From contig CM074705.1 in the NCBI GenBank assembly GCA_037367355.1, forward strand, positions 1,736,001 to 1,800,000: a stretch of 64,000 bases of DNA, written 5' to 3'. The notes under the pieces are model-generated. The model saw nothing but the letters and a program-made list of their open reading frames with translations. It made no database searches and was not told the origin of the DNA. This DNA is from Neoscytalidium dimidiatum (taxonomy: Eukaryota > Ascomycota > Dothideomycetes > Botryosphaeriales > Botryosphaeriaceae). Made by a program: the position numbers and the translations under genes. Shown here piece by piece: positions 3,001-63,251 of the stretch. Positions within the stretch are counted from its first letter, which is position 1, and the number at the start of each line of letters is the position of its first letter.

Positions 3001-3718
3001 CTGCCCACGATTCTGGAATGAGGGACGAATGATAGCCATTGGGAAATTCCTTTTGCCGACAATGAGCATACGGATGAGCTTCTCAATGCCATTTACAATG
3101 AAGTAACCTCCGAGCTCCTCCGTCTCTTCCTTAGCATTGACGAGCTGAGCAGGAGTCAAACCCTCGAGGTGGCACTTATTTGTCTGGAAATTGTCAGCGG
3201 CAAGGATAGCGCATAGTCAGCTTTTTTCAACGCACCCTGAGCATGATGGGGACTTGACCCAGCTCACGGACAGACTCCTTCCAGTCGCCATTGTTGACGC
3301 GCCACTCTAACCTCGCCCGCAGCTTTCCTCTGTATGTAGCGTGCCTCTCGCGGCACTCTGAAGGTAGTATATTGCGGCTCGACCCCAAGGCATACTTGTT
3401 GCTAGCTGGGAGGACGGCCTTCTCGAGGTATACGTCGCGGACGCGAACGTTGAGACGATTGCGAGGTCCGGCGGTGTTGATATCACCATCGAGGAAGGTC
3501 TTGGTGCCAATGTCCTTGAGACCGTGCTCCAGGATGCCATTCTTCTCGAAAATGGCATTGAAGGAGTGGATGTGCGGCTCGATGGCAGCGGCCAGCGACG
3601 GGTATGCGGTGTGGTCGGTGGGCGGGTTCTGGAAGAGCTTGTGGCGACGCACCGTGTCGTAGTCGGTGCGCCAGGCGGTGTCTGTCTTCGCCCTTCTCTT
3701 GGGGTGCGAGGGCGCCAT
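37..3718 (-). CDS. RPA135: RNA polymerase I second-largest subunit (Rpa135/RPA2)
   Basis: Beta-like subunit of nuclear RNA polymerase I, which transcribes rRNA genes in the nucleolus. Two exons: 3718-3236 and 3183-37, with a 52-nt intron 3235-3184 (GTGCGT..CAG). The join restores the family motif TNKCHLEGLTPAQL. The product is about 1209 aa, close to the roughly 1200 aa usual for the family. Visible landmarks are the lobe/fork region with GFLCPVHTPDGSPCGLLNHL, the active-site region GYDMDDAMIINKSAHERG, the hybrid-binding GDKFSSRHGQKGVMSQ, and a C-terminal zinc ribbon with CRQC and CRRC pairs. The ATG at 3718 (GCCATGT on the plus strand) opens MAPSHPKRRAKTD. It is divergent from ARL8, with a 735-bp gap between start codons. 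Identity is secure; only the exact first Met could differ. Confidence 0.96.
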
Positions 3719-28876: not shown

Positions 28877-30892
28877 ATGCCTTCAGCGCTTCTCGTCACG
28901 TTGGCCGTCCTTGCGGCGCTCTATCACGTGAACCTCTATAGATGCCTTGCCGCAAATATTAGGGCGGCCAAGAAATCAGGCATTCCGTACATTGTGCTTC
29001 CGTGGAACAAGTTCGGCATATTCTGGCTGCTTACTGGTGACCGCTTGTACCCCTTCCTTGACAGGCTGCCGAAGTCATGGACCAAAAGCTGGCTCCCATT
29101 TCTCCGTATTGAATGGCTATACGAGGCCAAGTATGAGCCCTTCAGGCGCTTTGGAAGCGAGGCCGTCCTGGTCTGCTCGCCCGGCGAGAAGCACCTCTAT
29201 GTGGCCAACCCGGAGGCCATAGTCGACATCACGACCCGTCGCCTCGACTTCCCCAAGCCATTGGAGGTGTACAAGACTCTGCAGCTTTACGGCGAGAACG
29301 TCGTCGTGACTGAGGGACAGCTGTGGCGCCGCCATCGCAAGGTCACGACGCCGTCGTTCAGCGAAAAGAACAACCGCGTCGTCTGGGACGAGAGCCTGCA
29401 ACAGTCCCAGGCAATCCTTATCCATTGGACCAGCGGCCACAGCTCGAGTCCAACGCTGCATGAGATGGATGCCGACATGATGAGTCTGAGCCTGCACATC
29501 ATCAGCAAGGCAGGTTTCGGTGTGCGCTGCCTGTGGCCCCACGAGGAGTCTGCAGGTGTGGAAGGGCAAGACGAGCGCTTGACCAGCAGCAAGCCGCCGC
29601 CCGGTCACACCATGTCGTACAAGGAGGCCATGAGCAAGCTGATGAAGAACGTTATTTGGATCCCCATTTTGCCGAAGTGGCTTCGCGGTAAGCTCATTCG
29701 TCCATGTTCTGTGGGGTCACTGCCTTCACGTGCGATGCTGATCCTGTTTTCCCAGATGTCCTGCCTTTTGAGGGACCGCGGACGGCGTCAGTTGCGTATG
29801 ACGAGTGGGGCATGTACATGAAGGAGCTGTATGAGATGAAGAAGACCCACATACGCGAGGGACGGACGACTGAAGGACTGGATCTTCTCGGTGAGATTGG
29901 ATCGCATGTGATCTCCGCGCCGCCCTCTCAGCTAACTAATGGCGTCAGGTTCTGTCATGAGAGGAGCCGGGATCACGGAGAAGACCCTAAGTGGAGCCGA
30001 GCCCCAGAACCAGCAGCTGAGCGATTCAGAGATTTTGGGGAACGCATTCATCTTCATTCTAGCTGGCCACGAGACCACCGCCAATGCAATGCACTTTGCC
30101 CTCGTGCTGCTTGCATTGAATCCGCACAGCCAACGCCGTTTGCAGAAAGACATCTCCGACGCCGTCGGCGAGCGTCCCGTTTCACAATGGAATTACGATG
30201 AGGACCTGCCGAAGCTGCTGAATGGAATGCCAGCCGCAGTCGTCTACGAGACGCTCCGCATGATACCCGCAGTGGTGGGGATTCCCAAGCGGACGCCAAA
30301 GGACAGCCCGCAGCCATTGACCGTCGACGGCCGCAGCTACGTGGTACCTGCAGACACGCTTATCTCCATAGACACGCCCGGAGCCCACAACAACCCCAGG
30401 TACTGGCCAGCTCGGCCCGATATATCGGCATTGCCGCCGGGAGATGAGCTCGAGCAGTTCAAGCCAGAGAGATGGATGGTGGATGAAAATAACCAACCGC
30501 TGGTCAATGGACATGGAGCAGAATCTGGCAAGGCACCGCAGCTGTTCAAGCCCGCCCCCGGCGCGTTCGTGCCTTTCAGCGAGGGCCACCGCAGCTGCAT
30601 GGGCCGGCGTTTCGCTCAGGTGGAGAGCATCAGCATCATCGCAGCGCTCATGCAGACGCACAGCGTCGAGCTGGCGGTGGATGAATTTGCCGATGACGAA
30701 CAGGTCGCGGGGATGCCGCGCGGAGGGCCAGAGCGCAGGGAGGTCTGGCAGAAAGCTGCGGACAGAGCCGCCAACGTGCTCAAGAACGGGCTGGGGACCA
30801 TCATCACGCTCCAGATGCGGACGGGGCACGTCCCGCTGCGCATCGTTAAGCGAGGAGAGGAGCGGTTCTTGTTTGATGAGCAGCGGGCGTGA
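28877..30892 (+). CDS. Cytochrome P450 monooxygenase
   Basis: Haem-thiolate monooxygenase, probably ER-anchored; substrate unknown. Three exons: 28877-29687, 29756-29890 and 29949-30892; introns of 68 and 58 nt, the second with a CTAACTAAT branch region. The product is 629 aa, longer than the roughly 500-550 aa norm. Residues 1-20 form a membrane anchor (MPSALLVTLAVLAALYHVNL). Conserved P450 elements: C-helix WRRHRK, I-helix AGHETTAN (about residue 353), K-helix ETLR (about 416), the PERW region, and the Cys-ligand loop PFSEGHRSCMGRRFA with Cys near 532. No biosynthetic cluster partners are adjacent (TyrRS follows). The extra length lies in the F-G region and after the haem loop. CYP family cannot be assigned by eye. 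Confidence 0.92.
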
Positions 30893-31819: not shown

Positions 31820-33147
31820 ATGGCAGACACAATGAGCACAGAGGCGAAGCTGGCGCTGATCTATGAGAATCTCCAAGAGAAGCTCAACCCGGAGATTCTG
31901 GAGGAGGTTGTCAAGAAAGGTGACAGGCCGCTCAAGATCTACTGGGGCACTGCGACTACTGGCAGGCCGCACTGCGGTTACTTTGTGCCCATGCTCAAGA
32001 TCGCGCAGTTCCTGCAAGCCGGCTGCCATGTCAAGATCCTGCTGGCCGATATCCATGCTTTCCTAGACAACCTGAAGGCACCCATTGAGCTGGTCAACTA
32101 CCGCGCCAAGTACTATAAGTTCGTCATCACCGAGTCGCTCAAGGCTGTAGGCGTTTCGGTCGACCGCCTCGAGTTCGTGCTGGGAAGCGAATACCAGAAG
32201 AGTCCGGACTACATGATGGACCTGCTGCGCCTGAGCACCATGACCACCGAGCACGACGCGAAGAGGGCAGGTGCCGAAGTCGTCAAGCAGACGGACAACC
32301 CACTGCTGTCGGGTCTGATCTACCCGCTGATGCAAGCTCTGGACGAGCAGTATCTTGACGTGGATGTGCAGTTTGGCGGCGTCGATCAGAGGAAGATCTT
32401 CGCGCTCGCAAAGGAGGCGCTGCCGAAGTTGGGCTACAAGGAGAGGGCACATCTCATGAACAGGATGGTGCCCGGTTTGCAGGTGGGTTATGGCTTTCCG
32501 TTGGGTGCCATCGAGCACGTCAATTACTGTTCGGGGCTAGGATGCTAACGCAACTGGTACTCCAGGGAGACAAGATGTCCTCGTCTGATCCTGACTCGAA
32601 GATCGATCTGCTCGACGGACCTGACGCAGTCAAGCGCAAATTGAAGAAGGCATTTGCGGAGCCGCGCAATGTCGAGGGCAACGGCCTGCTTTCATTCGTC
32701 GAGTACGTGCTGCTACCCGCAGGCGCGCTAGACGGTGACAGGCCCACTTTCACAGTCCAGCGCCGCGAGGGGGAGCCGCTCGTTTACACCGATGCCGAGA
32801 AGATGAAGGAAGACTATGCCGCCGATGTTCTCACGCCGCAGTCGCTCAAGTCCGGTGTCACTGATGCTATCAATAAGCTTCTTGCCCCCATCCAGGCGGC
32901 CTTCAACGCTTCCGAGGAGTGGCAGGAGATCGAGAAGCTCGCTTACCCCCCGGTTGTCGAGGAGAAGAAGAAGAAGGACAAGAAGGTTAAGAACAAGGGT
33001 ACGCGCTACCCTGGTGGCGCTAAGACTGTCGAGGCTCAGCCTGATGGCAGCGTCGAAGGCAAGGATGCCCAGGAGGTCAGCGTCGGCAAGAGCGCTGAGG
33101 AGGCGCTAAAGAAGCTGGACCTGGCGAAGGAGGAAGTCAAGTCATGA
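31820..33147 (+). CDS. TYS1: Cytosolic tyrosyl-tRNA synthetase
   Basis: Class I aminoacyl-tRNA synthetase charging tRNA-Tyr in the cytosol. Two exons: 31820-32482 and 32566-33147; 83-nt phase-0 intron (GTGGGT..CCAG) with a GCTAACG branch site. 414 aa. The HIGH-equivalent signature is [14 protein letters not shown] (about residues 42-55). [22 protein letters not shown] and [13 protein letters not shown] form the tyrosine pocket. The KMSKS-type loop [17 protein letters not shown] begins exon 2, immediately after the splice site (about residue 222). A Lys-rich C-terminal extension ([14 protein letters not shown]) is followed by an acidic/basic helical tail. The first ATG ([11 protein letters not shown]) has CACCATGG-like context; a second Met five codons on is possible. 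Confidence 0.95.
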
Positions 33148-60770: not shown

Positions 60771-62774
60771 ACACATTCGTTCTTAAAGAGCAAGAGGATG
60801 CAGAGTAGATGAAGATTTTCCTGGGTGGTGATGAAGCATTTTGTTGTGTTTCTTGTTTCATTGGCAGTAACGATACCTATAGAAGGGTCGGGCGAGTAGA
60901 CATCTCTCCTCCCTTAGACGTTGGCAAAGGACTCAATGTAGGATTTACGGCAGGTTTCGTTTTCTCTCTTTGGGAGCATCAGGTTACTATTATTACATAG
61001 ATGGATGGGCAAGCGAGTTCGTTTTCGTTTCTGCTGTTATTATGTTTTCTCCTTTCCATGATATATCCTGTGGGATTCTTGACGGATTTGATTTTGAATA
61101 TCCTCGTCTCCCCTTGTACGCTTCTATTCTTCTCCTCTTTTATCCAATTTTATGGATTTGATTTTTTTTTTGTTTATATTGATTTTTACTGTTTCCCGAC
61201 CGCTGGATACCACGTGTTATGCGAATGATACATGTAGAGCATACAAATATGCATATTTTCTATTCGGATCCGCATGGGAATGGAAAGGGCTTCAATAATC
61301 ACTCCTACGTACCCACTCTGACTTTTCTCGGAGAGATTATTTGCTGAACCAAAGTCAGGGTATTTGACAGGCAAGCGTCCTTCTGGCGCTAGGAGCAAAC
61401 GTGTCGCGTGTTGAGGACGCCAACGCTTATGCACGCCGTGGCGTCATCGATCATGCCGCGCACTTGTTTAGCGTGCCAGCTGCGTGATTGTAAGGTTTGT
61501 TGCAACATCCTTGCATGTTTCGTCCAGCGTGTGGCTAAGCTTGCTGGATGGAGCTTAGTGGGGAGGTTTGCTGGGCTTTGAGGGTATGAGTACGGGATGT
61601 GGGGTGAGCGTTGCAACAACGGCTGTTGGATGAGGGTGATTCCCGTGGTTGTCTTCCCACGAAATATTTGGTGCGTTGAATGGGAACGAATCATTTTTCC
61701 GCCGTAGACATCACTATCCAGATCATGGAACCCGCTATCCACGGGTTTCGCTTGCACCCCTGCCATTGATGGGATCTTCCGCGAGCAAACTCTGAACCCA
61801 AAGATACGATGAGATTATGCAACGGCTAGGCCGGATGGGCAGCAGCTGGAGCGGCTGTGTGGACGGGAGCGTCATTAATGTCGTTGAACATTCACATCTG
61901 GATTACTGCTTCAATTCCGTGTGTGCACTGCTTGTCTGTTGATGCATCACCTTTAAACCTGAATCCATATCTACTTCTACTCATCCTCATGTTGAAAATA
62001 ATGCCCCTGATGTTTGGCCTATCAACAATAAGAAACGTCCATGTTTCTCAACATCACCCGCAGCTGTGGGTGCTCCGATCACCATCTTTGCGCCTTTTTT
62101 TTTTTTTTTCTGACGTTGAGTGTCTGGCCTTTCCGCGAGCATTGTTCTCCCCCCGTAACAGAGCACCCGTGGGTCCGTGACGCGGATTCTGGAAAACGGG
62201 AGAAACACATGCGGGGTCAAGCACCCGCGGAGAATTTCGGGTGCAGGAGGATTTTTCCCGTGCGTCGCAACCACCGTATGTGTCGCACTCTTCCCCTTCG
62301 CTGAAGCAGGTGGGGAACTTCTTGAAGCGGGCCGTGGGTAGGTAGTTGCTTCTGCGACAGACACGCGAAAACATAGAAGTATCCCCGCAAATTATTGACG
62401 TATCATCGCTACACGTCCTGCCAGCATTCAGCTGAGTGAGATGAACGGTTATCGAGACGGGACGCGAGAACCCTCAAATTTCTTATGGACTTAGTTGAGT
62501 CCCTGCGAGAGAGACGCAGTTGATTGCATTGAAGTGAACGTGTGTTGCATGCATGCCATTGTCACGCACGAGAAGCTTGAGAAAGGCCGGGCTCTCGATA
62601 ATTGAAATAGGAAGTGCAAGTGTGTGCGAGAAGTCATCCAGACGTAAACACTCTGCATATCTAGGAGCACATTAACTTATGTACCTACTCTCACGTTGAC
62701 CAACCCGCTGCTTGGTACTACCACAACTGCTGATACAATACATAGAACTTAATTGTTCAAATTATTCTCAATGA
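60771..62774. other. AT-rich intergenic region
   Basis: About 2 kb. AT-rich, with T runs near 61159-61169 and 62097-62110. Short frames only. A weak minus frame at 61987-62374 has no recognisable domain. Nothing supportable. Confidence 0.45.
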
Positions 62775-62927
62775 GCGCCGATGGTGTAATGGTTAGCATT
62801 AATGCCTTCCAATCTCGTGGTTCCAACTACAATATTCGTCAGCATTAGATTCGGGTTCGGTAAGTTTCAAAGTTCGAATTTTGAAGAGTGCAAATTCTAA
62901 CAAGTATGAAGATTCCCGATCGGCGCA
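62775..62927 (+). tRNA. tRNA-Gly (anticodon UCC) with two insertions
   Basis: Acceptor 5' strand GCGCCGA (62775-62781) pairs with TCGGCGC (62920-62926). The A box matches TGGTGTAATGG. Anticodon stem AATGC (62801-62805) pairs with GCATT (62842-62846), loop CTTCCAA with anticodon TCC at 62808-62810, which fall exactly at tRNA positions 34-36. Insertion 1 (62812-62840, 29 nt) follows position 37, the canonical eukaryotic tRNA intron site. The T stem is TCGGG (62851-62855) with CCCGA (62915-62919). The T loop TTCG/ATT is interrupted after position 57 by insertion 2 (62860-62911, 52 nt), beginning GTAAGT, containing TTCTAAC and ending AAG. Removal of both gives a 72-nt molecule (counting A73) with a full cloverleaf. 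A T6 terminator follows. It could be a functional gene or an interrupted pseudogene; the exact boundaries favour the former. Confidence 0.85.
62860..62911 (+). other. Spliceosomal-type intron within the tRNA-Gly T-loop
   Basis: A 52-nt insertion with donor GTAAGT, branch-like TTCTAAC (branch A at 62900, 11 nt before the end) and terminal AAG. Length and signals match the protein-gene introns in this window (49-108 nt typical, CTNAC branch sites). Precise removal restores GGTTCGATTCC, the T-loop and B-box. Spliceosomal processing of the tRNA is inferred, not shown. Confidence 0.6.
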
Positions 62928-62941
62928 TTCAATTAAAGATC

Positions 62942-62947
62942 TTTTTT
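62942..62947 (+). terminator. RNA polymerase III T6 terminator
   Basis: Six T residues begin 15 nt after the discriminator base of the tRNA-Gly gene, the expected Pol III stop signal. Confidence 0.7.
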
Positions 62948-63251
62948 CCATTCCGTCTCTGTATTCGAGTGTTTGAAATTTTCTTTTTTTTTTTCAAACC
63001 CCCCTATCTTTTAACCTTTAGCTAGACTCTTTGTAAGTTTTTAACATAGCTGCTGTTAAACATCTGGAACCGGCTCATTGATCCTGATGGAAAGAGTGTG
63101 TTGTTGTCCCTATCCTCGGAGACCGGCCTATCAGCAAATTTCGTCAAATGATCGAAATGACGGGGGTCTCGAAGTCCGGTGCCCTGGATCGAGCGCGAGG
63201 AGGGATTGAATCAAATAATGCGGGTCTATCATAGGTATTTTCCGACCTTAC
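62948..63251. other. Intergenic region downstream of tRNA-Gly
   Basis: About 300 bp, AT-rich at the left with a T9-type run near 62985-62994. It separates the tRNA from the 3' end of the minus-strand gene at the edge. Nothing recognised. Confidence 0.45.

Follow-up and report, generated by a model that had tools for sequence, protein, structure and literature searches.

The locus at positions 62,775 to 62,927 of the window, meaning the whole 64-kb stretch of DNA analysed here (C11:1736001-1800000 of a genome of 43.76 Mb in 40 contigs), raises the question of whether a nuclear tRNA can depend on the spliceosome for its maturation. According to textbooks, introns of nuclear tRNAs lie at 37/38, and a dedicated endonuclease removes them. 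The first-pass annotation had proposed that this tRNA-Gly(UCC) gene holds one intron at that site and a second, mRNA-like one in the T-loop. The present analysis, which is based on sequence comparison, indicates that several nuclear tRNA genes very probably contain major-class (U2-type) spliceosomal introns outside 37/38, in transcripts made by RNA polymerase III (Pol III) and spliced by the spliceosome.

The claim that all arms of the tRNA pair only when both 62812-62840 and 62860-62911 are taken out was borne out, with exactly these coordinates, by ARAGORN runs with and without the inserts. No tRNA was called in window positions 62701-63000 when unedited or when only the first insert was removed. 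Removal of the second insert, with introns allowed, gave tRNA-Gly(tcc) interrupted from position 38 by an intron of 29 nt (62812-62840), in agreement with the proposed 37/38 location of the first insert, and removal of both gave a 72-nt tRNA-Gly(tcc) with all arms paired. Every feature ascribed to the second insert was likewise recovered, including its position in the T-loop after nucleotide 57, the initial GTAAGT, the internal TTCTAAC, the terminal AG and the length of 52 nt. Rfam gave no match in the 64-kb window at gathering thresholds. The gene is organised as follows:

62775..62811, + strand: exon 1 of tRNA-Gly(UCC), nucleotides 1-37 (ARAGORN), with the A box starting at T8 (62782)
62812..62840, + strand: 29-nt canonical tRNA intron at 37/38, of the tRNA-endonuclease type (ARAGORN i(38,29)), the boundaries of which may shift by one base
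62841..62859, + strand: exon 2, nucleotides 38-57, ending in the T-loop with GGTTCG
62860..62911, + strand: 52-nt spliceosomal-type intron between T-loop G57 and A58 (removal test, signals and tRNA-Asp empty site)
62860..62865, + strand: 5' splice site GTAAGT (read in the sequence)
62871..62881, + strand: B-box-like element AGTTCGAATTT within the T-loop intron, a candidate substitute for the split exon B box (PWM score 8.61)
62895..62901, + strand: branch-point-like TTCTAAC, the presumed branch A being 62900, 11 nt before the intron end
62910..62911, + strand: 3' splice site AG (read in the sequence)
62912..62927, + strand: exon 3, from A58 to the discriminator base
62942..62947, + strand: T6 run, candidate Pol III terminator (sequence reading)

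Ten inserts of the same kind were found in the genome, distributed over five isotypes, Gly(UCC), Asp, Arg(CCU), Phe and initiator Met. This list is a lower bound, given that scores from the tRNA family search cover 63 of 1020 first-look candidates. T-loop inserts are also present in a tRNA-Asp(GTC) gene on contig C6 (51 nt) and in a tRNA-Arg(CCT) gene, L033, on contig C1 (54 nt). A targeted search for tRNA-Phe recovered five matches, three with an insert at 30/31 and two without, and all five also hold a 37/38 intron of 28-39 nt. The search for initiator tRNA-Met, which used a pattern able to catch uninterrupted copies as well and allowed up to three mismatches, recovered four matches, every one of which is interrupted at 24/25. 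The six tRNA-Asp matches comprise one relic without a T-arm, four copies with an intact T-loop and the copy with the T-loop insert, that is, one of the five with a full body. Genuine 37/38 introns accompany the extra inserts in the Gly, Asp, Arg and Phe genes, and removal of the extra insert yields a tRNA call with the correct anticodon in nine of the ten cases (ARAGORN). Two loci are degenerate copies: the initiator tRNA-Met L075, whose insert starts with GCGAGA and lacks CTRAY and whose acceptor stem contains a mismatch, and the tRNA-Asp L081, which has lost its T-arm.

Three further genome-wide patterns, all of which require both GTAAG and CTAAC (present jointly in four of the ten known inserts), added nothing to this set. 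After insert removal and ARAGORN, no new case was obtained from GTAAG..CTAAC..GGTTCGA (3 matches, control 5) or AGTGG..GTAAG..CTAAC (33 matches, control 52), and the sole case from TAGCTCA..GTAAG..CTAAC (3 matches, control 6) was the tRNA-Phe gene L069, already known. Scans of viral and genome contig collections returned eight matches, six in archaea-titled records and two viral, with none in fungi, and none of 28 further matches in viral contigs resembles an initiator tRNA.

The survey also produced observations on other tRNA loci. A conserved trailer, AAGGA..CCTT, followed by a hairpin, lies directly 3' of the tRNA-Phe genes L068, L069, L070 and L071 and, more weakly, of L067; the hairpin stems covary (CCAGT/GCTGG, CCAGT/ACTGG, CCAAT/ATTGG), and the hairpin mostly precedes a T-run, such that a structured 3' RNA may form part of the tRNA-Phe transcript. 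Locus L060 was called Tyr(ata) by ARAGORN, although its body and a G3-T70 acceptor pair suggest, by eye, Ala(AGC) with an intron of the 37/38 type. An AT-rich, organelle-like tRNA set is repeated at an offset of ~176.9 kb on the 308-kb contig G000:C40, which probably represents a large mitochondrial genome in partly dimeric form.

The signals of the extra inserts are those of mRNA introns. Eight of the first nine, which measure 51-61 nt, start with GTNNGY, contain CTAAY, the A of which lies 11 or 12 nt from the end, and finish with AG, and the tRNA-Arg insert (54 nt) starts with GTAGGC, contains CTGAC with its A 11 nt before the end and finishes with CAG. The full signal set is found in nine of the ten when the branch motif is read as CTRAY and in eight when it is read as CTAAY, and all ten have the 3' AG. 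By comparison, GTNNGY..CTRAY..AG is present in none of 24 anticodon-loop introns (called at 33-39), these being the 28 intron rows minus four in which ARAGORN had spanned an insert of the new kind. Four mRNA introns of the window, anchored by homology, provided the reference:

3184..3235, - strand: RPA2 intron, 52 nt, GTGCGT..CTGAC..CAG (tblastn P0121/P0123/P0124)
29688..29755, + strand: cytochrome P450 intron, 68 nt, CTGAT (read against homologue P0241)
29891..29948, + strand: cytochrome P450 intron, 58 nt, CTAAC (read against homologue P0241)
32483..32565, + strand: tyrosyl-tRNA synthetase intron, 83 nt, GCTAAC (homology-anchored)

All four have the form GT..CTRAY..CAG, with CTRAY 10-17 nt before the end (the RPA2 and P450b introns hold two CTRAY each, and the values 10 and 13 were taken). 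Their lengths of 52, 58, 68 and 83 nt, against 51-61 nt for the ten inserts, agree with the earlier statement that the T-loop insert matches the neighbouring mRNA introns in size and grammar. Introns predicted de novo were rejected as a reference, being too weak a signal (15 candidates in 223 kb versus 4-11 for six decoy branch motifs); two of the 15 candidates fall in tRNA-Phe genes, and the window alone gave six versus 0-3 for four decoys. Among the proteins of the window, phosphoglucomutase (PGM) shares 93% identity with an unnamed protein, 92% with Neofusicoccum parvum, 91% with Lasiodiplodia hormozganensis and 90% with Diplodia seriata, while the best named relatives of RPA2 and the cytochrome P450 are from Diplodia, followed by Macrophomina for the P450. 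These similarities place the genome in the Botryosphaeriaceae or very close to that ascomycete family.

The bare T-loop junction pattern, GGTTCGGTN{38,68}AGANTCC, is at chance level, with 12 matches genome-wide versus 13 for the reversed pattern, and insert removal turns three of the 12 into tRNAs, namely Gly(UCC), Asp(GTC) and Arg(CCT) (ARAGORN). The splice signals were assessed by a remove-and-call procedure, in which stretches of 42-80 nt with GTNNGY, CTRAY 8-16 nt before the end and AG were excised before ARAGORN was applied. In 240 kb of nuclear sequence, which consists of the window, tRNA loci and other loci, is enriched in tRNA loci, includes the loci already known and is not a random sample, 310 candidates led to ten tRNA calls spanning the junction. 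Nine are true and correspond to the nine inserts with the full signal set; the tenth is spurious and lies at the 3' end of a tRNA-Arg (L015) that is intact as it stands. With four sets of decoy signals, the 306, 226, 249 and 256 candidates from the same 240 kb produced no tRNA.

These data bear on the possibility that the endonuclease removes the extra inserts as tRNA-type introns at non-canonical sites and that their likeness to GT..CTRAY..AG is coincidental. Non-canonical introns in the D and T arms are known in nucleomorphs and Cyanidioschyzon, according to the accessible text of a review (PMC4090602), the Gly, Asp, Arg and Phe genes do contain endonuclease-type introns as well, and the Asp insert has the best bulge-helix-bulge score of the set, reached by 22 of 300 shuffles. 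None of the ten inserts, however, scores clearly above 300 shuffles for a bulge-helix-bulge, and in nine of them the best score is reached by more than 100 of the 300 (177 of 300 shuffled introns equal the Gly insert). The Gly T-loop insert differs from an endonuclease-type intron in both respects, as it lies at 57/58 rather than 37/38 and has no bulge-helix-bulge that stands out from shuffles. A cut by the endonuclease is made very improbable by these scores and by the occurrence of the spliceosomal set in nine of ten inserts as opposed to none of the 24 anticodon-loop introns. A T-arm mimic of the expected form was absent from the nine inserts in which it was sought, and self-splicing introns were rejected, 51-61 nt being too short on general knowledge.

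Additional evidence for a spliceosomal intron comes from tRNA-Asp. In the genes L077 and L078 the body is the same, the 37/38 intron differs in one base and the 3' flanks begin alike; what otherwise sets the two genes apart is precisely the 51-nt GT..AG T-loop insert. L077 is a natural empty site for the tRNA-Asp T-loop intron. The 5' site, the branch site, the 3' AG with the length, and exact joining together with an empty site are all in accordance with a U2-type intron. Intron gain is the simpler reading for tRNA-Asp because four of the five copies with a full body lack the insert; the pair suggests a recent and precise gain in a tRNA gene, with loss as the alternative. A DNA search of the same genome with the Asp insert found only the insert itself and no recognisable donor. 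For ten pairs of same-site inserts, identity is 3-8 letters above the shuffled mean, and in three pairs, Gly/Asp among them, it exceeds the maximum of 50 shuffles by one or two letters. As shuffling also destroys the shared signals, these values point to little in common beyond them; a common origin of same-site inserts is possible, and the identity test does not prove an independent origin for each site.

It may also be supposed that the interrupted genes are dead or dying, with inserts that are never removed and other copies doing the work. In the accessible text of the same review, a eukaryotic tRNA gene that has a non-canonical insertion and is one of many synonymous copies is presumed to be a pseudogene (PMC4090602), uninterrupted copies exist here for tRNA-Asp (four) and tRNA-Phe (two), and degenerate copies do occur, as seen in the initiator L075 and the Asp L081. 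Such decay is plausible for single Asp or Phe genes and possible for Arg, but it is not plausible for tRNAs of which every copy found is interrupted, as is the case for the initiator and for tRNA-Gly(UCC). Further intact copies of the latter, named beforehand as the finding that would tell against the proposal, were searched for in the 43.8-Mb genome; one match was obtained at up to three mismatches, namely this gene, and a copy more divergent than the three mismatches that the search reaches is possible. Insert removal restores a tRNA with the right anticodon in nine of ten cases, and codons GGA and GGG are in use, with seven and one occurrences, respectively, in the PGM gene of the window. 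We consider it very unlikely, on this evidence, that the inserts as a group sit in defunct genes.

Functional genes with T-loop introns would face a promoter problem. The T-loop sequence serves as the B box of a Pol III promoter, which is broken in two by an insert at 57/58. Scored with a matrix built from 14 distinct B boxes of the genome (training scores 9.9-16.6), the exon B box of tRNA-Gly falls from 16.6 when joined to -0.1 when interrupted. Both the Gly and the Asp T-loop inserts contain a B-box-like 11-mer at intron position 12. The Asp 11-mer, CGTTCGAATCC, scores 12.25, a value reached by none of 2385 window tiles; the Gly 11-mer, AGTTCGAATTT, scores 8.61, which is reached by 26 of 2385 window tiles and is below the weakest training box (9.9). 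None of the seven inserts located in other arms scores above 3.04. No B box was found in the tRNA-Arg T-loop insert (-2.98, with 2012 of 2385 tiles equal or better) or in the 200 nt 3' of that gene (2.27, the median of 200-nt tiles being 3.24). A candidate replacement B box is thus present in two of the three T-loop introns, those of Gly and Asp, and we infer it to be functional there. Compensation is not a rule, as the tRNA-Arg T-loop intron without a B box weakens promoter compensation as a general principle; the missing tRNA-Arg B box counts only against that principle, and the intron reading itself is favoured by the tRNA-Arg case together with the decoy control. Visual inspection of 55 upstream regions, that of Gly included (51 taken from ARAGORN calls and four placed by hand), revealed no motif distinguishing the Gly gene.

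The split promoter leads to the suggestion that the inserts are spliceosomal introns, but that the functional precursors are read-through transcripts of RNA polymerase II (Pol II) and not Pol III products. The usual substrates of the spliceosome are Pol II transcripts, the B box is split by the T-loop introns, and the Arg gene has no visible substitute. B-box-like elements in two of the T-loop introns and T runs downstream of the Gly, Asp and Arg genes oppose this, as does the U6 gene of fission yeast, a Pol III transcript with an mRNA-type intron according to the accessible text of PMC10484740. Pol II read-through appears very improbable. The Gly T-loop intron itself contains a T4 run, and partial premature termination there is possible, since 17 of 48 tRNA 3' flanks of 60 nt have no T run longer than four (15 with T4, two without any); on the other side, the tRNA-Gln(TTG) body has the same ATTTTGA as the Gly intron.

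As a separate observation, the U6 gene of this genome (L065, C5:1524025-1524126) is intronless and is followed ~14 nt past its 3' end by a B box, CGTTCGAATCC, identical to the Asp-intron 11-mer.

If the inserts are spliceosomal introns in Pol III transcripts, RNA polymerase III would transcribe the interrupted tRNA gene, the spliceosome would release the GT-AG intron in lariat form and, in Gly, Asp, Arg and Phe, the tRNA endonuclease together with the ligase would take out the 37/38 intron separately, such that single tRNAs with both kinds of intron would need both machines. The earlier suggestion that this tRNA may need endonuclease and spliceosome together thus gains support from the signals (nine of ten versus none of 24), the decoys and the tRNA-Asp empty site. 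Where the B box is split, TFIIIC may use an intron-borne B box, as in Gly and Asp, and tRNA-Arg would have to rely on its split B box or on another element. Translation would depend directly on splicing, because every initiator copy recovered and the single tRNA-Gly(UCC) gene recovered are interrupted. In a broader sense, this fungal lineage is likely to have nuclear tRNA genes in five isotypes, these initiator copies and the Gly(UCC) gene among them, that are obligate spliceosome substrates; introns would keep arriving in tRNA genes, and some of those that break the promoter would bring or keep a substitute B box. Spliceosomal introns appear to have entered nuclear tRNA genes, essential ones included, repeatedly, and the process is probably still under way.

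If this is correct, tRNA precursors can serve as spliceosome substrates, a Pol III promoter can withstand an intron or even relocate into one, intron gain becomes observable in a 72-nt host with exactly known boundaries, and the start of protein synthesis is tied to splicing capacity. The first-pass annotation knew of no previous description of a spliceosome-dependent tRNA, and none was found among the listed titles and abstract openings of openly licensed PMC papers, none of which reports spliceosomal introns in nuclear tRNA genes. The search for non-canonical introns in tRNAscan-SE 2.0 is described, in the accessible text of its paper, for candidates from the archaeal model (PMC8450103), and such genes may therefore have been missed or filed as pseudogenes in other fungi.

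Several known systems share part of this arrangement. Canonical 37/38 introns of nuclear tRNAs coexist with the new introns in Gly, Asp, Arg and Phe but occupy another site and show the splice consensus in 0 of 24 cases. Spliceosomal introns have been reported in rRNA genes of some fungi, and these are likewise mRNA-type introns in a non-coding housekeeping RNA, although the polymerase and the class of RNA are different. The tRNA introns of nucleomorphs and Cyanidioschyzon merolae can lie in the D, T or anticodon arm, and some tRNAs hold two or more of them; the non-canonical tRNA introns of Guillardia measure 3-24 nt and are attributed to the splicing endonuclease, as far as the accessible text of the review describes them (PMC4090602). 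The genes described here resemble those of nucleomorphs and C. merolae in having introns in non-canonical arms and more than one per tRNA, but unlike the 3-24-nt introns of Guillardia their inserts are 51-61 nt long, with spliceosomal signals and no clear bulge-helix-bulge. The U6 introns of Schizosaccharomyces reportedly contain a B-box match, going by a title of Frendewey from 1990. In fission yeast, the mRNA-type intron of the U6 snRNA gene lies near catalytic nucleotides, according to the accessible text of PMC10484740. The present genes agree with fission-yeast U6 in combining a Pol III RNA, an mRNA-type intron and, in Gly and Asp, an intronic B-box match; they differ in that the host there is a spliceosomal RNA, whereas the hosts here are tRNAs of five isotypes in a genome whose own U6 gene is intronless.
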